In this document: positions 3,756 to 30,389 of the stretch, piece after piece
Layout: every line of letters begins with the position of its first letter
Position numbering within the stretch: the first letter of the stretch is position 1
NCBI GenBank assembly: GCA_020438135.1
Contig: JAGQVF010000155.1
Span: 1 to 35,931, forward strand
Length of the DNA stretch: 35,931 bases
Reading direction: 5' to 3'
DNA from: Bacteroidales bacterium
GTDB taxonomy: Bacteria > Bacteroidota > Bacteroidia > Bacteroidales > JAADJA01
Notes under the pieces: generated by a model
The model's database searches: none
Seen by the model: only the letters and a program-made list of their open reading frames with translations
What the model was told of the DNA's origin: nothing
Translations under genes and position numbers: made by a program

Positions 3756-4316
3756 TTACTCTTTTGTTAATCCGGCTTTTATATCTACCTGAATCTCCTC
3801 TGCAATTTTCTGGTAAACAAGCTGAGGAATGGTGATGTTGTGATCGGCAAGCGGTACGATAAAACGGGATGATACCACAATCGTATCGCCTGCAATCTTC
3901 AGGGTACATTTGATGATGCGCTCCTGTTTTACCCCATGAATATCGAGCAGACCTTTAGCCCGCACGGTTTGTTCACCGGGGTTTTCCGGATCAACCGTTT
4001 CGATGATCTTACCCGAAAACCGGGCGAAGGGATATTGTTCGGTCTCCATGTAGTTTTCGTAAAAATGTTCCTGCTGCAGAGGAGAGTTAAATCCTTTGAG
4101 TGTATTCACCTCAAGCTGGAAGGCGAATGTTCGTTTGTCGATATCTACCAGGCCTTGCAGCGAACTTGATTCGGCGGTAATAAATTCAAGGGGAGCATCG
4201 GAAACAAATTTGATAAATCCGTTTTCAGTTTTATAAAGCGCCTGTTGCGTTCTGGCCTGAAAAAAGGTCAGCAACAGCACCATTGCTAACAGTAAAAATC
4301 TCTGTAATGGGAACAT
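3756..4316 (-). CDS. YceI-like periplasmic protein
   Basis: A 186-residue protein with a clear signal peptide (about 1-23, ending in ARTQQ) and a body resembling the YceI lipocalin-like fold: an FVSDAPLEFITAESSSLQG opening, a central F(Q/N)xxYMETEQYPFARFSGKI stretch and a late VPLADHNI segment. YceI proteins bind isoprenoid or other amphiphilic molecules in the periplasm; whether this one does is inferred only from the family. It sits 9 bp upstream of the sensor kinase, so it may be part of the same signalling unit, for example presenting a ligand, but this is speculative. A 41-bp gap separates it from the MORN-repeat gene upstream. Confidence 0.82.
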   Translation of the reverse strand: MFPLQRFLLLAMVLLLTFFQARTQQALYKTENGFIKFVSDAPLEFITAESSSLQGLVDIDKRTFAFQLEVNTLKGFNSPLQQEHFYENYMETEQYPFARFSGKIIETVDPENPGEQTVRAKGLLDIHGVKQERIIKCTLKIAGDTIVVSSRFIVPLADHNITIPQLVYQKIAEEIQVDIKAGLTKE

Positions 4317-4357
4317 ACCGAATAAACAACGTTATAAGAGTAAGGTTTAATAAAGGA

Positions 4358-4783
4358 TTATGGGTTGTCGTAATCGACCTCTTTCTGAAGGTTTCCGTCC
4401 AAGTCCCAAAACTTCCAGATGCCTGTCCGCTCATTGTTTTTAACCTCACCTTCATAATACTTTTGACCGTTGGGATGCCAAACCGTTTTTAGTCCGTTTT
4501 CTTTGCCATCCTTAAAGTGTCCGCGGCTCCAGAGTTTGCCGTCTGCAAACCAGGCGTTCCATTCACCGTCGCGCACTCCGTTTTTGAAGGTTCCTTCAAT
4601 TCTTTTCTGCCCGTTTTCGTGGTATTCAATTTTACGCAGCAGCACTTTTTTATCCTCCGTCTTGTAATATTTAACCACTTGTGGCGTGCCGTCGGGATGG
4701 GTCAGTTCTACATATTCATATGGATCGGAAGTGCAGGACCACAGTCCGAAAACCAGCAACAGCAATAAGATTTTTCTCATCAT
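4358..4783 (-). CDS. MORN/YwqK-type repeat lipoprotein
   Basis: About 141 residues from the ATG at 4783. An in-frame ATG at 4849 exists but lies inside pyrC and would bury the signal peptide; the chosen start gives MMRKILLLLLVFGLWSC, a standard lipoprotein signal with Cys17. The body consists of MORN-like repeats (YHENGQKRIEGTFKNGVRDG, WFADGKLWSRGHFKDGKENG, WHPNGQKYYEGEVKNNERTG, WDLDGNLQKEVDY). These match proteins often annotated YwqK-family antitoxin, but no toxin gene is adjacent and that label should not be taken literally. It begins 1 bp after the pyrC stop, so it is almost certainly cotranscribed. Role unknown; predicted membrane-anchored. Confidence 0.85.
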   Translation of the reverse strand: MMRKILLLLLVFGLWSCTSDPYEYVELTHPDGTPQVVKYYKTEDKKVLLRKIEYHENGQKRIEGTFKNGVRDGEWNAWFADGKLWSRGHFKDGKENGLKTVWHPNGQKYYEGEVKNNERTGIWKFWDLDGNLQKEVDYDNP

Positions 4784-4784
4784 A

Positions 4785-6140
4785 TTATCTTTGAAACAAA
4801 AGCCTTTGGCCTTTAACCTGTTCGTTAAATTGTCCGTTTTGATACACAAGATTTCCGTTCACAAAGGTATGGGTTATCGACGAATGAAAGGTATGTCCTT
4901 CAAAAGGCGACCAACCGCATTTATATAACAATGAATCACGGGTAACTTCTGAAGGTTTATCCGGATCGATCAACACCAGGTCGGCATGGTATCCTTTGCG
5001 GATAAACCCTCTTTTTTGAACCTGGAAACAGATGGCCGGAGCGTGACACATTTTTTCAACGATCCGCTCGAGGGTGATTTTCCGCTGGTGGTAAAAATCG
5101 AGCATGGCAGGCAGGGCATGTTGTACAAGTGGCCCTCCCGAGGGTGCTTTCAGGTAAGGATTGTCTTTTTCGTCAAGGGTGTGCGGCGCATGGTCTGTGG
5201 CTATCACATCCAGCTTGTTATCAAGCATTGCATTAAAAAGTGCATCGCGGTCTTCTTTGGTTTTAACAGCCGGATTCCATTTGATCAGTGTTCCTTTTTC
5301 GGCATAATCCGAGTTGCTGAACCACAGGTGATGGATGCAAACTTCGGCTGTTATTTTTTTCCTGGAAAGGGGAATGGTATTGTCGAAGAGCTCCAGTTCG
5401 CGTGCCGTTGAGAGATGCAGGATATGCAGCCTGGTGTTGTAGAGTTTGGCCAGCCCCACAGCCAGTTTAGAGCTTTTATAACAGGCTTTGTCGCTTCGGA
5501 TCAGGGGATGTGCCTCGATGGGAATCCGGTTGCCGTATTTCTCTTTGAAAAGTTCTGTATTATCGCGTATGGTTTGTTCGTCTTCGCAATGGACCGCAAT
5601 CAGCATTTTGCTTTTGGAGAAGATCGCATTCAGGGTGTTAACATTATCCACCAGCATGTTTCCTGTTGAAGCCCCCATAAATATTTTAATCCCACAAACG
5701 GTTGCCGGATCTGTTTTAAGGATCTCCTCCAGATTGTTGTTGGTAGTGCCCATGTAAAAAGAGTAATTGGCCAGGGATTTTTCGGCTGCGATCTTGTATT
5801 TTTCTTCGAGCAGCTCTTGTGTGACGGCCTGGGGAATGGTGTTGGGCATTTCCATAAAAGAGGTGATGCCTCCGGCAATGGCTGCTTTGCTTTCGGTATA
5901 AATTTCGGCTTTGTGGGTCAAACCCGGTTCGCGGAAATGGACCTGGTCGTCGATCACACCCGGGATCAGGATTTTTCCATCGGCATCAATGGTTTCGGAA
6001 TTGTCATCCGGTGTTGGATTTTCACCGGGAGGATGAGGAAGAATGTTGTAAATGAGTCCGTCTTTTACCTGCACACTGCCATGGAAGATTTTCCCTTCAT
6101 TGACAATGCGGGCGTTGTGTATGTTTAGCGTTCCGTTCAT
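4785..6140 (-). CDS. pyrC: Dihydroorotase
   Basis: A 451-residue amidohydrolase-fold enzyme that cyclises N-carbamoyl-L-aspartate to dihydroorotate in pyrimidine synthesis. Visible landmarks are the VIDDQVHFREPG loop (Q66, H68), the carboxylysine candidate K152 in CGIKIFMGAS, metal-ligand candidates in AVHCEDE and LHILHLSTA, and the catalytic Asp in TDHAPHT. The first metal-binding His of the usual HxH pair is Gln (CAG codon at 5943-5945). From memory, this Gln form is common in Bacteroidota homologues, so it is probably lineage-specific rather than inactivating. Cytoplasmic. The gene lies 61 bp after the glycosyltransferase and 1 bp before the MORN lipoprotein. Confidence 0.93.
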   Translation of the reverse strand: MNGTLNIHNARIVNEGKIFHGSVQVKDGLIYNILPHPPGENPTPDDNSETIDADGKILIPGVIDDQVHFREPGLTHKAEIYTESKAAIAGGITSFMEMPNTIPQAVTQELLEEKYKIAAEKSLANYSFYMGTTNNNLEEILKTDPATVCGIKIFMGASTGNMLVDNVNTLNAIFSKSKMLIAVHCEDEQTIRDNTELFKEKYGNRIPIEAHPLIRSDKACYKSSKLAVGLAKLYNTRLHILHLSTARELELFDNTIPLSRKKITAEVCIHHLWFSNSDYAEKGTLIKWNPAVKTKEDRDALFNAMLDNKLDVIATDHAPHTLDEKDNPYLKAPSGGPLVQHALPAMLDFYHQRKITLERIVEKMCHAPAICFQVQKRGFIRKGYHADLVLIDPDKPSEVTRDSLLYKCGWSPFEGHTFHSSITHTFVNGNLVYQNGQFNEQVKGQRLLFQR

Positions 6141-24169: not shown

Positions 24170-24739
24170 TTGAGCAAAAAAGATTTAAATAACCAGCTTG
24201 AATTAATTAAAAGGTGTTGTGAAAACGACAAACGGGCACAGTTTGAATTGTACAAAATGTTTTATAAACCGATGTATAATACCAGTCTCAGAATATTAAA
24301 CGATCGAACAGAAGCGGAAGATGTGATGCAGGATTCCTTTCTCATGGCTTTCAGGAAAATAGACGAATATTCGGGTGAAGGAGATTTTGGGGCCTGGTTG
24401 CGCAGAATTGTTGTAAATAACTCAATTGATGCGTTAAAAAAACGGAGACAGTGGATTTTGCCCGGAGACGAAAATCTCGGGGAAGATGAGCCGGAAGAAA
24501 CACAAACAGAGGATACTGAATATAAAATTGCTGAGATTAAATCAGCTATGGGCACATTGCCAGAGCAACACCGGGTAATAATTTCACTTTTTTTATTTGA
24601 GGGATATGATCATGGAGAAATCTCCGAAATTTTGGGGATCTCCTACAATAATTCGCGCACGCGCTATTCAAGAGCCCGGCAAAAACTGTTGGAAGTATTG
24701 TCGGTACAGAGAAAACTGAGTGTTTTTCATCCAAACTAA
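24170..24739 (+). CDS. RNA polymerase ECF sigma factor
   Basis: 189 residues with a TTG start; no in-frame ATG precedes the conserved region. Region 2 covers about residues 25-90 (FYKPMYNTSLRILNDRTEAEDVMQDSFLMAFRKI, then FGAWLRRIVVNNSIDALKKRR). An acidic linker follows, then region 4 at about 125-180 (LPEQHRVIISLFLFEGYDHGEISEILGISYNNSRTRYSRARQKL). It directs core polymerase to a small envelope-response regulon. The next gene encodes a membrane protein with an anti-sigma-like layout, 8 bp downstream, and two secreted beta-repeat proteins follow. Confidence 0.95.
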   Translation: MSKKDLNNQLELIKRCCENDKRAQFELYKMFYKPMYNTSLRILNDRTEAEDVMQDSFLMAFRKIDEYSGEGDFGAWLRRIVVNNSIDALKKRRQWILPGDENLGEDEPEETQTEDTEYKIAEIKSAMGTLPEQHRVIISLFLFEGYDHGEISEILGISYNNSRTRYSRARQKLLEVLSVQRKLSVFHPN

Positions 24740-24747
24740 AGAATGGT

Positions 24748-25290
24748 ATGAAAAGGATCGAAGACAAAATAAAAGACAATCTTAACCTGCTTAATGCAGA
24801 GGAGCCTGATAGCAGCCATCTTGAGCGTTTCAGCGATAAGCTGGACAGGTTTCACGCAACGCAACATGAAAACTGGTTTCAGCGAAACGAACTGGTATTG
24901 AAAATGGCTGCTGCTTTGGCCATCTTTATTACGATAGGTACTTTGCTTTACACAGGAACCTTTTCGCGGTGGAGAACCGTGCTCACCGAGCAGATCGTTG
25001 CAGCCGAGTTACCTGCTGAAGTTAGGGAAGTAATGCAATATTACAATGTAATTACCGAGCAGAAGGTAGAAGAGATCGATAAACTTGCCATTTCGCAGGA
25101 CGAAGCCGACCGTGTTAAAAAGATGGCTCTTGCTGAATTGAAAGACCTCGAACTGGCCCGGTTGGAACTGGAAAAAGAATATACCAAACAACCCGGTAAT
25201 GAACGGATCATGAATGCTATGCTGGCCAATCAACAACGAAAATCAGAGATCCTCGATAAGATATTACATACTTTAAACCAGGTAAATTAA
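24748..25290 (+). CDS. Single-pass membrane protein, probable anti-sigma factor
   Basis: 180 residues. A cytoplasmic N-terminal part of about 48 residues is followed by one membrane helix (about 49-70, LVLKMAAALAIFITIGTLLYTG). The periplasmic part is mostly charged helix ending with ARLELEKEYTKQ and RKSEILDKILHTLNQVN, predicted coiled coil. No zinc-binding HxxxCxxC (ZAS) motif is seen, so it is not a classical ZAS anti-sigma factor. Position directly after the sigma gene and topology make sequestration of the sigma factor the best guess. A homologue-level search would be needed to confirm. Confidence 0.75.
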   Translation: MKRIEDKIKDNLNLLNAEEPDSSHLERFSDKLDRFHATQHENWFQRNELVLKMAAALAIFITIGTLLYTGTFSRWRTVLTEQIVAAELPAEVREVMQYYNVITEQKVEEIDKLAISQDEADRVKKMALAELKDLELARLELEKEYTKQPGNERIMNAMLANQQRKSEILDKILHTLNQVN

Positions 25291-25298
25291 TTTAAATC

Positions 25299-25394
25299 AT
25301 GAATGCTATTGATAACCATTTGGTTATCCGGCTCTCAGACAAAAAGCATTCTCCCCTGACAGGGGTAAATAAACGAAAACAATCAGACAGATGA
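25299..25394 (+). CDS. 31-codon leader ORF overlapping the next start codon
   Basis: ATG at 25299, 31 codons, TGA at 25392-25394, overlapping the ATG of the DUF4097-like gene as ATGA. The peptide is MNAIDNHLVIRLSDKKHSPL followed by a basic end. Two hairpins lie within it. It may be a translation-coupling leader or chance; no family recognised and no strong ribosome-binding site is seen. Confidence 0.35.
   Translation: MNAIDNHLVIRLSDKKHSPLTGVNKRKQSDR
25311..25365 (+). promoter_or_regulatory. Two small hairpins in the leader of the DUF4097-like gene
   Basis: First hairpin: GATAACC (25311-25317) with GGTTATC (25322-25328), loop ATTT. Second hairpin: CCCCT (25353-25357) with AGGGG (25361-25365), loop GAC. 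Both stems are perfect and lie between the anti-sigma-like gene and the next start, so they may affect translation or mRNA stability. No T-run follows either. Confidence 0.5.
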
Positions 25395-26449
25395 AAACAG
25401 GAAGCAAAATTTTGGGAATCGCAATGGTAGGATTACTTCTTTTGCTCAATACCTTAGCAAGAAGTGAAGAATTCACCAAAAAAATGAGCAAGTCCTTTGA
25501 CGTGAACAAAAATGCACTGCTCGAACTGAAAAATAAATTCGGGAAAATTCAATGTTTAAACTGGGATCAGGATATTGTGAAAGTTGATGTGGAAATCACC
25601 ATCAACACCTCGAATCAGGATAAAGCCGATAAATATTTCAATCGTATTAATGTAGATATTTCGGGAAGTGCCGATAAAGTTTCAGTGATCACATCTTATG
25701 ACGACAACCTTTTTAAGAACAACAACAACGATATCACTATCGATTTTACCATCCAAATGCCTGAATCATTGCAACTGGAGGTTAATCACAAGTTTGGAGA
25801 TCTGATCATTGAAAAGATAACCGGCAATAGTGATATCAGCCTGGGTTATGGCAATTTCGACATTGCTGCCCTCGCAGGATCAGGCAATATGCTTGATATC
25901 CAGTTCAGTGACGGGAAGATCGGGTATGTAAAAAATGTAGAACTCGAACTTAAATACTCCGACCTGGAAATCGATGAAGCGGGGTCGATGAATGCGGAAA
26001 CCAAATTCTCAGATTTCGAACTGGGCAAAGTAGATGTGCTTACACTCGAAACAGGCTATGATGATGATTATATAGGTTTTGCCAGAGATGCCGATATCGA
26101 ATCGAGTTTCTCCGATGTTGAAATCCGGAATCTGAGCGAAAAAATCGTCGCGGATATCGATTATGGCGAACTGAAAGTAAAGGAAGTGGATGCCTCATTC
26201 AGCCTGATCGATATCTCAAATAATTTCGCCGATGCCAGTTTAGGTATCAGTCCTCAGGCCAGTTTTAAACTGGTGGCAACTATAAAAATGGGATCCTTTA
26301 ATTTCCCGGAAAACGATGCGCGGTTTACAGTTGTTGACCTTTCGCACACCTCACAGAAATATGAAGGAATTGTTGGCGATGATGAAAACACCACATCGAG
26401 GGTATTGATCGATACCAAAACCGGTGGGACCAATTTATATTTCAGATAA
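25391..26449 (+). CDS. DUF4097-like secreted beta-repeat protein
   Basis: 352 residues with a signal peptide (about 1-24, GIAMVGLLLLLNTLARS). The mature protein repeats short beta-strand units with Asp/Gly/Ser turns (LEVNHKFGDLIIEKITGNSDISLGYGNFDIAALAGSG, then VELELKYSDLEIDEAGSMNAETKFSDFELG), as in DUF4097-type putative adhesins that likely form a right-handed beta-solenoid. It is third or fourth in the ECF operon, and the start codon overlaps the 31-codon ORF. The site of action is periplasm or outer membrane; the function of this family is unproven, although such genes commonly travel with ECF pairs in Bacteroidota. Confidence 0.82.
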   Translation: MKTGSKILGIAMVGLLLLLNTLARSEEFTKKMSKSFDVNKNALLELKNKFGKIQCLNWDQDIVKVDVEITINTSNQDKADKYFNRINVDISGSADKVSVITSYDDNLFKNNNNDITIDFTIQMPESLQLEVNHKFGDLIIEKITGNSDISLGYGNFDIAALAGSGNMLDIQFSDGKIGYVKNVELELKYSDLEIDEAGSMNAETKFSDFELGKVDVLTLETGYDDDYIGFARDADIESSFSDVEIRNLSEKIVADIDYGELKVKEVDASFSLIDISNNFADASLGISPQASFKLVATIKMGSFNFPENDARFTVVDLSHTSQKYEGIVGDDENTTSRVLIDTKTGGTNLYFR

Positions 26450-26490
26450 TTTTTTAATAATCAATAATCATAAACTAAATTCTTACAATC

Positions 26491-27219
26491 ATGAAAAAAG
26501 TGAATTTAACAATGTTATCCGTGCTCCTTTTCAGCTTTATGTTTGTTGCCGCCAGTGCATGCAATTATACATTCAACGGAATTAAAGGCGATGGAAATGT
26601 GGTGAAACAGGAGAGAGAAGTGGGCTCTTTCAGTGGAATCGAAGTAGGGGGTGCATTTAAAGTTTTTTTGAGCCAGGGCGATGAAGAGAAAGTAATTGTT
26701 GAAACCAATGAAAATCTGCTTGATGTCATCGAAACCAAAGTAGTAGGAAATACACTTAAAATTTCAACCACCAAAGATATTAATAAGGCGGATGAACTCA
26801 ATATTTATATCACCTTTGTAAATATTGAAGATCTTGAAGTTAGTGGGGCCTGTCATCTGAAAAGTGATAATAAGATCAAGCTTAAAGAACTTGATTTGGA
26901 GTGCAGCGGTGCATCGGATGTTGAGCTTATGCTATCATTAACCGTTCTCGAAATGGATTGCAGTGGTGCCAGTCAGGTCGAATTATTCGGCACTGCCGAC
27001 AACGTAGAACTCGATTTATCAGGAGCCTCCAAGTTGGATGCAATTGAATTCGAAACCCGCAAACTGGATGCGGATATTAGTGGTGCTTCGGGGGGCAAAA
27101 TGTCTGTTACCGGAGAGCTGTCGGCTGATGTCTCAGGTGCATCCAGCTTCCGCTACAAGGGAGAACCCACCATCAGAAATGTGGATGTGTCCGGTGCTGC
27201 CAGTTTTAAAAAGTATTGA
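26491..27219 (+). CDS. Head-GIN domain (DUF2807) lipoprotein
   Basis: 242 residues with a lipoprotein signal (VAASAC, Cys24). An N-terminal opening VKQEREVGSFSGIEVGGAFKVFLSQGDEEKVIVETNENLL is typical of DUF2807 (head GIN). After it come seven SGA-containing turns about every 15-25 residues (VSGACHL, CSGASDVEL, CSGASQVEL, LSGASKLDA, ISGASGGK, VSGASSF, VSGAASF), indicating a regular beta-solenoid. It is the last gene of the ECF operon, 41 bp after the DUF4097-like gene and directly before a terminator. It is anchored by lipid in the envelope. Adhesin annotation of the family is putative. Confidence 0.9.
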   Translation: MKKVNLTMLSVLLFSFMFVAASACNYTFNGIKGDGNVVKQEREVGSFSGIEVGGAFKVFLSQGDEEKVIVETNENLLDVIETKVVGNTLKISTTKDINKADELNIYITFVNIEDLEVSGACHLKSDNKIKLKELDLECSGASDVELMLSLTVLEMDCSGASQVELFGTADNVELDLSGASKLDAIEFETRKLDADISGASGGKMSVTGELSADVSGASSFRYKGEPTIRNVDVSGAASFKKY

Positions 27220-27242: not shown

Positions 27243-27277
27243 GGAGAGCCGGAGAAAACCGTGCTCTCCTTTTTTTT
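27243..27277 (+). terminator. Rho-independent terminator of the ECF operon
   Basis: GGAGAGC (27243-27249) pairs with GCTCTCC (27263-27269). A one-base bulge and an inner CGG/CCG extend the stem, the loop is AGAAAA, and eight T follow (27270-27277). It separates the ECF operon from the cytochrome genes. Confidence 0.92.
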
Positions 27278-27405: not shown

Positions 27406-29001
27406 ATGAAGGTTATCACTCTCCAAAAAACATTTTTCCTGGTTTTATTTTTAGCGGCAGGTGTATTCGTATTTAATGCCTGTCAACACAAACCCGACGA
27501 ACAATTAAAACCGGATAACCAGGTAGATCCACCGATCGATACCATAGCCTGCGATTCATCCAATGTAACCTATCCAGGAACAGTGTTACCTATTCTCGAA
27601 ACATATTGTTTATCGTGTCATAGCGGACCGACTCCATCAGGTGCCCTTGATTTTACAGACTACAACGACCTGGCCTTTGTAGCTGAAAGCGGTCAGCTAT
27701 TGGGAGCCCTGAAACATCAGGAGGGTTTTGTTGCCATGCCCCAGGGCATGCCAAAACTTTCGCAATGCGAGATCGATTTGGTGGAAATTTGGGTGAACGA
27801 TACTACTTTCATTACTCCGCCCGATACAACGGAATGCGACACATCGATGATCACATTCCCGGGAAAAGTTCTACCGATTTTACAGAACAATTGTATCGGA
27901 TGTCACGGTCCACCGGCATTTGAGGGTGGATTGAACTTTACCGATTATGCTGACATTGCTTTTGTAGCGCAAAGCGGTCAACTGCTGGGGGCCATAAAAC
28001 ATGAGGCAGGATATGAACCGATGCCACAAAATGCCCCAGCTTTAACTGCTTGTGAAATCCTGACCATCGAAACCTGGATCAACGATACAACTTTTACTAC
28101 GATCGATACCACCGAATGTGATTCTTCGAATGTAACTTTTCCCGGAACCGTATACCCGATTCTTCAGGAAAACTGTATCACCTGTCACAGTCAGCCTGTT
28201 CCGGCTGCGGGGCTTGATTTTACCGATTATGAAGATTTGGCTTTTGTGGCGCAAAGTGGTCAGTTGCTGGGTGCGATCAAACATTTGGCTGGTTATACAC
28301 CCATGCCTGAAAACGCACCGCCTTTGACAGATTGCGAGATAGGACTGATACAAAAATGGGTGAACGATACAACCTTTAACACCGGAAACAATGGAATACC
28401 ATGCGATCCTGATACGGTTTATTTTCAAAATGACGTTTTACCCTTGCTCCAGTCGAGTTGCGGAATTGCAGGTTGTCACGATGCCGCAACGGCAGAGGAT
28501 GGTGTTGTTTTAACAAGCTATCTGTCGGTGATGCAAACTGCAGGAGTGCAGCCGTTCAATCCTTTCGACAGTGAAATTTACGAAGTGATCACCGAAAATG
28601 ATCCCGATGATCGTATGCCGCCACCGCCGGCTTCAGCACTTACCAACGACCAGATCAATTTAATATATACATGGATCTCACAGGGAGCGTTAAACAATCA
28701 TTGCGAACAAATGGATTGCGATTCAACCAACGTCAGTTTTTCACAAGAAGTATTCCCGATCATCCAGAACAGTTGCCTGGGTTGCCATAGCGGTGCCAAT
28801 CCCAATGGTGGGATCAGCCTGACCAACTATCAGCAAATCAAAAACCAGGCGTCGATCTCACCGGGATCATCCGGAAGTTTGCTGGGGGCTATCACCTGGG
28901 CCACAGGAAATAGCAATATGCCACAAAACGGAAATAAACTTTCTGATTGCGATATCGGCATCATCAGGAATTGGATTGAAGAAGGAATGCCAAATAATTA
29001 A
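27406..29001 (+). CDS. Five-module c-type cytochrome lipoprotein
   Basis: 531 residues from the ATG at 27406; the open frame from 27373 only adds a non-signal leader. The lipoprotein signal is LAAGVFVFNAC (Cys26). Five cytochrome modules of about 95-105 residues follow, with heme-attachment motifs CLSCH (C68), CIGCH (C163), CITCH (C257), CGIAGCH (C352, four residues between the Cys) and CLGCH (C457). Each module has a later MP-x-x or MPPPP segment offering a Met axial ligand. Modules 1, 2, 3 and 5 also carry a flanking Cys pair (CDSSN-like at the start, C(E/D)I near the end) that may form a disulfide. Modules 1-3 are nearly copies of each other. A periplasmic or surface electron carrier is inferred; partners are the next two genes. 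Confidence 0.9.
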   Translation: MKVITLQKTFFLVLFLAAGVFVFNACQHKPDEQLKPDNQVDPPIDTIACDSSNVTYPGTVLPILETYCLSCHSGPTPSGALDFTDYNDLAFVAESGQLLGALKHQEGFVAMPQGMPKLSQCEIDLVEIWVNDTTFITPPDTTECDTSMITFPGKVLPILQNNCIGCHGPPAFEGGLNFTDYADIAFVAQSGQLLGAIKHEAGYEPMPQNAPALTACEILTIETWINDTTFTTIDTTECDSSNVTFPGTVYPILQENCITCHSQPVPAAGLDFTDYEDLAFVAQSGQLLGAIKHLAGYTPMPENAPPLTDCEIGLIQKWVNDTTFNTGNNGIPCDPDTVYFQNDVLPLLQSSCGIAGCHDAATAEDGVVLTSYLSVMQTAGVQPFNPFDSEIYEVITENDPDDRMPPPPASALTNDQINLIYTWISQGALNNHCEQMDCDSTNVSFSQEVFPIIQNSCLGCHSGANPNGGISLTNYQQIKNQASISPGSSGSLLGAITWATGNSNMPQNGNKLSDCDIGIIRNWIEEGMPNN

Positions 29002-29007
29002 CATAAC

Positions 29008-29034
29008 ATGGTGGGGTGTTGACAGCACCATTTT
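29008..29034 (+). other. Intercistronic hairpin between cytochrome genes
   Basis: ATGGTG (29008-29013) pairs with CACCAT (29026-29031), followed by TTT. Too weak for full termination; it may mark partial termination or mRNA processing between the five-module and one-module cytochrome genes. Confidence 0.35.
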
Positions 29035-29054
29035 AAACAGAGGTAATTTAAAAT

Positions 29055-29429
29055 ATGAAAGCAATAATTTTAAAAACATTTGGTGTCGTTTTAATGCTCA
29101 CAGCTATGCAGGCATGTTATTACGACAATGAGGAAACACTTTATCCCGATAGTGTTGCCTGCGATACGACTAATGTGACCTACGCAGGAACCATTGCTCC
29201 GATCATGGCTGCCAATTGCAATTCATGTCATAATTCGGGACTGGCCAATGGCGGTGTCATTACCGAAAGCTACGATGGATTAAAGATCGTGGCTGATAAC
29301 GGGCGTTTGGAAGGCGCTGTGTTTCATCAGTCGGGATATTCTCCCATGCCTCAAAATCTACCGCAATTGCCGGATTGTGAGTTGACTAAAATAAAAATCT
29401 GGATCGATGCAGGTGCCATTAACAATTAA
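29055..29429 (+). CDS. One-module c-type cytochrome lipoprotein
   Basis: 124 residues with a lipoprotein signal ending AMQAC (Cys21). It has a single module clearly homologous to those of the upstream protein: CDTTNVTYAGTIAPIMAANC, then the heme motif CNSCH, HQSGYSPMPQNLPQLPDCELTKIKIWIDAG with a candidate Met ligand, and the same flanking Cys pair. It lies 53 bp after the five-module gene and 21 bp before the barrel gene. It is predicted to be lipid-anchored and to carry one heme c. It may be the ancestral unit or an interaction partner that hands electrons to or from the larger protein; both are inference. Confidence 0.9.
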   Translation: MKAIILKTFGVVLMLTAMQACYYDNEETLYPDSVACDTTNVTYAGTIAPIMAANCNSCHNSGLANGGVITESYDGLKIVADNGRLEGAVFHQSGYSPMPQNLPQLPDCELTKIKIWIDAGAINN

Positions 29430-29450
29430 ACCTATTTTGAAAAGTATCAT

Positions 29451-30389
29451 ATGAGAAGCGTGAATAAAAAACAAGTTTGGCTGCAGTTTTTACTGTTTAT
29501 TACCCTGGGGTTAGCTGCGGTAAGCGTATTTGCACAGGATGAAGGCGACGACTTGATGAGTCTGCTTAATGAGGGTGAAGATGAAACTATCAATTACAGT
29601 TATGCAACTTTTAAGACCAGTCGTGTGATCAATTCGCATTCTGTGGAGCAACCAGCCAGGGGTGTATTATTATTTCTGATACAACACCGGTTTGGCCGTC
29701 TGAATACAGGCGCTTATGAATTGTTCGGACTTGATCAGGCAACCATTCGGCTTGGTTTGGAGTATGGAATTACCGACAGATTAAGTGTAGGTGTAGGCCG
29801 AAGTTCTTTCGAAAAAACATATGACGGATTTGTTAAATATAAGCTCCTCAGGCAAAGCACGGGAGCACGTAACATGCCTGTTACAATCTCTTATTATGCA
29901 AGTACCACACTTAATTCGCTTAGCTGGTCCGATATGGGTGTTGAAAACCGTACCAATTATTTTAGCTCCAGGCTGGCTTATACTCAAATGCTTCTGATTG
30001 CCAGGAAATTCAGCAGCAAGGTGTCGGTTCAGTTGATGCCAACCTATATTCATAAAAACCTGGTGCCATCAGAAGAGGATGAAAATGATATCTTGTCATT
30101 TGGTGTTGGGGGACGGGTGAAACTCAATAATCGTGTTTCGATCAATGCCGAGTATTTTTACACACCTTCCAATCAGATTTCATACGATTTTGATCAACCA
30201 ATTTCTTTGGGTTTTGATATTGAAACAGGTGGACACGTTTTTCAACTTCATTTCTCCAATGCCAAAGCTTTTTTTGATAACGGATATCTTACCGAAACGG
30301 AAGGTAAATGGAGTTTAGGGGATATTTATTTTGGGTTTAACATCTCCAGGGTTTTTACCATCGTTAAACCCGAACAATTTAAAAACTGA
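29451..30389 (+). CDS. DUF5777-type outer-membrane beta-barrel protein
   Basis: 312 residues with a signal peptide (about 1-28, FITLGLAAVSVFAQ), then a short acidic stretch (DEGDDLMSLLNEGEDE). After it come regular beta-strands typical of DUF5777: FKTSRVINSHSVEQPARGVLLFLIQHRFGRLNTG, LGLEYGITDRLSVGVGRSSFEKTYDGFVKYKLL, and a C-terminal FGFNISRVFTIV. It is predicted to sit in the outer membrane. It follows the two cytochrome genes by 21 bp and is the last gene of the cluster. A barrel adjacent to heme lipoproteins is the arrangement expected of an outer-membrane electron conduit, but a transport or binding role is equally possible. Confidence 0.87.
   Translation: MRSVNKKQVWLQFLLFITLGLAAVSVFAQDEGDDLMSLLNEGEDETINYSYATFKTSRVINSHSVEQPARGVLLFLIQHRFGRLNTGAYELFGLDQATIRLGLEYGITDRLSVGVGRSSFEKTYDGFVKYKLLRQSTGARNMPVTISYYASTTLNSLSWSDMGVENRTNYFSSRLAYTQMLLIARKFSSKVSVQLMPTYIHKNLVPSEEDENDILSFGVGGRVKLNNRVSINAEYFYTPSNQISYDFDQPISLGFDIETGGHVFQLHFSNAKAFFDNGYLTETEGKWSLGDIYFGFNISRVFTIVKPEQFKN

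Follow-up and report, generated by a model that had tools for sequence, protein, structure and literature searches.

A DUF5777 barrel paired with a redox lipoprotein as a candidate outer-membrane electron-exchange module of Bacteroidota

Organization of the locus

The 35,931-nucleotide (nt) contig JAGQVF010000155.1 of a Bacteroidales bacterium (assembly GCA_020438135.1), whose whole length is referred to as the window and whose positions are used throughout, encodes at 27406–30389 two c-type cytochrome lipoproteins and an outer-membrane β-barrel of the DUF5777 family (hereafter the trio). A first-pass annotation had proposed the trio as a candidate extracellular electron conduit. Its reading of three adjacent genes in a single orientation, separated by gaps of 53 and 21 base pairs, agrees with the coordinates of the open reading frames.

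27406–29001, + strand: five-module c-type cytochrome lipoprotein, 531 residues from the ATG, with PSCyt1 and Cytochrome_CBB3 profile matches
29055–29429, + strand: one-module c-type cytochrome lipoprotein, 124 residues, haem motif CNSCH at 29217–29231
29451–30389, + strand: DUF5777 outer-membrane β-barrel, 312 residues, PF19089 match, 12 strands predicted

The barrel assignment is borne out by a match to PF19089 that spans the full profile (positions 1–247 of 247, E = 2.5e-96, 322 bits), and the 124-residue protein is indeed a paralogue of the five-module protein, being 32–42% identical to each of the five modules. Both cytochromes have lipobox-like N-termini; the lipid-bearing cysteine of the five-module protein is residue 26 and is followed by QHKPDE, and the corresponding N-terminus of the 124-residue protein reads CYYDNEETLYP.

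DUF5777 is paired with a redox lipoprotein across the phylum

We surveyed 296 Bacteroidota genomes, sampled evenly across the phylum, together with 14 control genomes. DUF5777 was found in 115 Bacteroidota genomes (39%; 65 of 140 when counted by genus) and in none of the 14 controls, and the window's genome carries two copies. From relatives and the phylum we collected 112 DUF5777 loci, each with flanks of about 6 kb as far as the contigs reached, and counted as a partner any gene within four genes of the barrel; the loci are mutually related, and the counts are descriptive rather than independent trials. A cytochrome of the single- or multi-module family lies within this distance in 94 loci, a small Rieske protein takes the place of the cytochrome in seven, and one locus is a cytochrome–barrel fusion. 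The remaining loci are contig-limited or partnerless, one (L082) being a weak barrel hit. The Rieske proteins have lipobox-like or Tat-like N-termini; six of the seven loci were recognized by motif and L140 was read by eye, and Pfam confirmed all four that were scanned. Rieske-type proteins near a barrel and YceI, mostly replacing the cytochrome, were noted at L056, L085, L089, L090, L112, L113, L138, L140 and L209; at L089, cytochrome and Rieske protein are both present.

Among genes more than four genes away from the barrel, 8 of 430 belong to the module family, corresponding to a chance of about 14% per eight-gene neighbourhood. Cytochrome modules or Rieske proteins adjoin nearly every DUF5777 gene, and the pairing is therefore not a product of chance. 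In another sample, 80 named loci picked for similarity to the window barrel and partly overlapping the first set, 73 loci contain a cytochrome and one a Rieske protein; all six loci without a partner lie on truncated contigs, and the cytochrome is present in all 63 loci whose contig extends for 1.5 kb or more to either side. Cultured relatives that also have the pair include Salibacter, Pontibacter and Hymenobacter. Rare co-occurrence had been named beforehand as the outcome that would speak against the first-pass proposal; what we found is that the one-module lipoprotein and the barrel form a conserved pair throughout the phylum. The invariant core is one redox lipoprotein and DUF5777, usually accompanied by YceI and an oligonucleotide/oligosaccharide-binding (OB)-fold protein. 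A 497-residue frame in G051, suspected to be a fusion, proved to be only a longer reading frame, and the OB-fold, single-haem, YceI and barrel genes are all separate there.

Haem–Rieske exchange and natural fusions

On the barrel tree, the Rieske label changes four times, and at least three of these changes are forced by well-supported branches, indicating that two unrelated redox proteins have repeatedly taken the same slot. Such repeated exchange argues that the barrel needs one-electron chemistry rather than the haem fold.

Furthermore, two loci (L142 in G089 and L230 in G376), from genomes belonging to two families, encode a signal peptide, a CX4CH cytochrome module and DUF5777 in one frame. 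The two fusion proteins are 55% identical over residues 6–373 of 375, and their cytochrome module is homologous to the stand-alone single-haem proteins (phmmer, E = 1e-15). They carry an ordinary signal peptide and no lipid anchor peptide. The N-termini of outer-membrane barrels face the periplasm. The fused cytochrome, being attached to the N-terminus of the barrel, should therefore be periplasmic. A periplasmic placement has likewise been argued for the cytochrome of Cyc2 (PMC8406198), with which the fusions share the domain order, cytochrome N-terminal to barrel.

Predicted fold and conserved residues of the barrel

An AlphaFold2 model of the window barrel, built with 106 sequences, has 12 strands, a predicted local distance difference test (pLDDT) score of 94.3 and a predicted template modelling score of 0.85. 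In a fold search, the closest Protein Data Bank (PDB) structures were NanC, OmpG, porins and FapF, which are generic small barrels and give no functional clue. A PDB sequence search with the barrel returned a single match, a pore-forming toxin at E = 0.085, which we took as chance. Judging by its size, the modelled 12-strand barrel would be too small to hold a class I cytochrome domain.

H79, G93, H262, F264 and G295 are invariant in the 106 barrel sequences, and T259, N203, K129 and R300 are more than 90% conserved. From the alternation of residues along the strands, H79, T259, H262 and R300 would share a lipid-facing parity on the neighbouring strands 1, 10, 11 and 12. This putative patch could be a site for docking, for lipid or for quinone.

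Module expansion in the multi-module cytochromes

The modules of the five-module protein are 94–105 residues long. In each, a single haem c motif lies at module position 20 and a Met-Pro further on is a candidate haem ligand, much as the first-pass annotation had described; the motif is CXXCH in four modules and CX4CH in module 4.

27550–27834, + strand: module 1, haem motif CLSCH at 27607–27621, 60–61% identical to modules 2 and 3
27835–28116, + strand: module 2, haem motif CIGCH at 27892–27906
28117–28401, + strand: module 3, haem motif CITCH at 28174–28188
28402–28716, + strand: module 4, divergent, CX4CH motif CGIAGCH at 28459–28479
28717–28998, + strand: module 5, haem motif CLGCH at 28774–28788

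The same alternation between CXXCH and CX4CH at one module position recurs within the family, both at 28459–28479 and in the single-haem genes of many loci. The protein matches the Pfam profiles PSCyt1 (E = 1.6e-22) and Cytochrome_CBB3 (E = 3.2e-17). It resembles PSCyt1 and the LIC11213 family lipoproteins (NF047812) in its single-haem lipoprotein domain, and five of its stretches match NF047812 at 86 bits, under the curated cut-off of 100. A PDB sequence search with the multi-module cytochrome gave no meaningful match, and the AlphaFold model of the five-module protein, built from 11 sequences only, is unusable (pLDDT 36).

Modules 4 and 5 are kept in all 11 aligned multi-module cytochromes. 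Modules 1–3 are 60–66% identical to one another and are thus recent duplicates. Two modules are the commonest multi-module form; three-, four- and five-module versions also exist, the last, in the loci seen, only in the window's genus. Per locus, the module count ranges from none to five. Given this variable count and the recent duplications, the string of beads is an expansion of local extent that does not belong to the core design. Most loci have two modules or lack the multi-module protein, which is an optional expansion of the core pair; its five-module form is not the conserved partner of the barrel.

A branch of the barrel family linked to multihaem chains

In a tree of 108 barrels, a clade with multihaem and NrfD contexts (support 100/97, 24 rows) stands apart from barrels that mostly have YceI contexts. 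The gene order typical of the multihaem branch is Crp-like regulator, six-haem lipoprotein, single-haem lipoprotein, DUF5777, seven-haem cytochrome, cytochrome b561 and NapC-like six-haem protein, and the window's genome carries exactly this order at its second DUF5777 locus (L040, G000:C350, 3207–10061). The six-haem lipoprotein of L040 matches the MtrC/MtrF II/IV domain above the cut-off and has a weak collagen-like match. L040 resembles a full extracellular electron transfer chain and is a stronger candidate for one than the window locus. Elsewhere, L073 encodes a 4Fe–4S protein and NrfD (Pfam), and L061 has the same 4Fe–4S protein. L070 and L071 each have a protein of 928–933 residues with 19 CXXCH motifs near DUF5777; the 19-haem protein of L070 (9266–12067) is fused to a C-terminal b561 domain. 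The pair of barrel and single-haem protein has thus been joined to quinone-linked respiratory modules and, separately, to YceI, and the multihaem respiratory context of L040 supports an electron-transfer role.

This context bears on the model of the first-pass annotation, a classical porin–cytochrome conduit in which the barrel sheathes a spanning cytochrome and the five-module protein is the outside wire. The trio shares with MtrCAB and the Geobacter porin–cytochrome types a barrel and c-type cytochromes in one cluster, here two cytochrome lipoproteins in one apparent operon, and L040 adds a six-haem MtrC/MtrF-like lipoprotein, a seven-haem protein, cytochrome b561 and a NapC-like protein. 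However, the window barrel is far smaller than those of such systems, with 12 predicted strands against the 26 of MtrB, which houses a decahaem cytochrome (PMC8406198). Its partners carry one haem per module of 89–105 residues, with none to five modules per locus and no densely packed multihaem protein. We consider such a conduit very improbable and set it aside on account of the 12-strand predicted barrel. The broader idea of an extracellular conduit gains from the conserved pairing and from the multihaem chain at the second locus; it loses in that a barrel of the predicted size could not sheath cytochromes as MtrB does and that the cytochrome of the fusions should be periplasmic.

YceI partners and a possible role in membrane-lipid protection

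Of the additional genes in DUF5777 neighbourhoods, those for YceI (PF04264) and the OB-fold protein (PF12869, tRNA_anti-like) recur most often, with YceI in the lead; YceI and a cytochrome are both near DUF5777 in 57 of the 112 loci. Every DUF5777 locus at which a cytochrome b561 gene was found lacks a nearby YceI. In several species of the window's genus (L038, L042 and L046), the YceI and OB-fold genes lie slightly downstream on the opposite strand. The window contains a YceI gene 23 kb from the trio, which is 39% identical to that of L038; the likelier orthologue in this genome, 64% identical to the L038 protein, is on contig C96.

3756–4316, − strand: YceI-family protein, 186 residues, paralogous to the YceI with which DUF5777 is usually linked

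This frequent association is the starting point of the main rival explanation, repair of lipid radicals in the outer membrane. YceI would carry a quinol-type antioxidant, the lipoprotein would recycle it and the barrel would be a lipid-facing docking or reaction site, so that electrons stay in the cell. There is a precedent in Burkholderia, where the YceI lipocalin BcnA and the cytochrome b561 LcoA guard membrane lipids from peroxidation, and one YceI lipocalin binds ubiquinone-8 (PMC9113575). The invariant H79 and H262, with T259 and R300, would suit such a site if they face the lipid as their parity suggests. Aerobes are among the hosts, and several haem-copper oxidases are encoded in the window's genome. 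The likeness to BcnA–LcoA lies in the genetic linkage of a YceI lipocalin to a redox haem protein (PMC9113575); here, however, the linked components are a c-type cytochrome or Rieske lipoprotein and DUF5777, with no b561 accompanying YceI, and the window's YceI is not adjacent to the trio. Moreover, the barrel branch labelled B/C has multihaem and quinol-dehydrogenase partners and no YceI was seen there, and multi-module cytochromes would have no obvious role in lipid repair. We regard this explanation as possible but rather unlikely.

Lipoprotein anchors

Among the 97 single-haem proteins gathered, almost all that are adjacent to a barrel have a lipobox, and the peptide after the lipid-bearing cysteine is conserved among these single-module partners as CYYDNEEELYP. 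The first-pass annotation had likened the residues after this cysteine to surface-export signals. Acidic residues at positions +2 to +7 are indeed mildly enriched, averaging 1.86 in single-module and 1.58 in multi-module cytochromes against 1.24 in other lipoproteins, but the CYYDNEE motif is unlike the described surface lipoprotein export signals (PMC5080379), leaving the idea weakly supported overall.

The conserved peptide also suits an arrangement in which DUF5777 anchors or flips the lipoprotein, leaving the redox domain to act at the surface of the membrane with no transmembrane step through the barrel. At L055 (5085–5813), a haem-free LamG-like lipoprotein occupies the cytochrome slot and keeps the similar peptide CINDNEKDMFP; here the barrel of G038 may work without haem. 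Set against such a scaffold or display function, the fusions with their ordinary signal peptide do without the anchor peptide, and the likeness to export signals exceeds that of other lipoproteins only mildly. We judge this arrangement improbable.

Neighbouring features of the window

Upstream of the trio, the sequence contains a terminator-like element.

27243–27277, + strand: hairpin (GGAGAGC...GCTCTCC) followed by a run of eight T, ending the upstream unit, read in the sequence

Its loop of 13 bases is above the eight-base limit of our hairpin scan. Because the hairpin and T run separate the trio from the upstream DUF2807 gene, the trio looks like a unit of its own. The apparent separate unit just upstream (24170–27219) consists of an extracytoplasmic function sigma factor gene followed by genes for a small protein that has a single hydrophobic stretch, a 352-residue exported protein without a Pfam family and the DUF2807 protein. 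At 3756–4849, on the − strand, the YceI paralogue adjoins a MORN-repeat lipoprotein-like gene.

Discussion

We propose, with confidence that is about evenly balanced, that the trio represents an enlarged local version of an outer-membrane redox module found across the phylum, and that this module carries out a split, Cyc2-like electron exchange. In this reading, the core of the module pairs a one-electron carrier that has a lipid anchor (a single-haem cytochrome, replaced by a Rieske protein in some lineages) with a dedicated 12-strand barrel, usually in the company of a YceI lipocalin and an OB-fold protein. The analysis shows the gene pairing, the haem–Rieske exchange, the fusions and a 12-strand barrel model; where the carrier would dock, which way electrons would flow and what species would act on the outer side are inferred. 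As is thought for the cytochrome domain of Cyc2, the lipoprotein cytochrome would dock at the barrel's periplasmic opening. There it would exchange electrons with periplasmic or quinone-linked carriers on one side and, on the other, with a small redox species arriving either through the barrel or alongside it. Where present, the multi-module cytochrome, whose length varies, would be an extension serving as an electron store or relay at the outer membrane.

A single haem on its 16-strand barrel is enough for Cyc2 to oxidize Fe(II) (PMC8406198). The likeness to Cyc2 is one of architecture, an outer-membrane barrel combined with a c-type domain that carries one haem. The window cytochrome and barrel are separate genes, the barrel is predicted to have 12 rather than 16 strands, the family has extra modules and YceI and OB-fold partners, and the pair is not known to act on iron.

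Several observations weigh against a split, Cyc2-like exchange. We identified no electron path across the narrow barrel, which its own N-terminal segment may fill. A redox partner is not universal, given the haem-free lipoprotein of L055 and four loci with full context (L101, L123, L128 and L132) at which YceI is present and no redox partner was found. YceI, the most frequent extra partner, fits lipid protection as well, and a search of the available library found no paper that mentions DUF5777.

The same search found none describing the cluster and none linking YceI to a Bacteroidetes barrel and cytochrome. In an anode-enriched Bacteroidetes metagenome-assembled genome, six multihaem cytochromes and a barrel form a cluster that is uncharacterised (PMC8258643). 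Cytochrome–barrel pairs are already known as a kind, and the DUF5777 system is apparently undescribed. More tentatively, DUF5777 may define a new class of outer-membrane electron exchange, separate from both MtrCAB-type conduits and Cyc2, with a 12-strand barrel, an interchangeable haem or Rieske lipoprotein, an occurrence in about two fifths of the sampled Bacteroidota and one branch coupled to multihaem chains.

Collectively, the exchange of haem for Rieske proteins and the natural fusions argue that the job of the barrel is tied to one-electron chemistry. If this job is not extracellular electron transfer, the pair would serve an unknown redox task at the outer membrane. Few genetic handles exist for extracellular electron transfer in Bacteroidota, and the presence of a conserved pair in cultured relatives makes the question testable by deletion.

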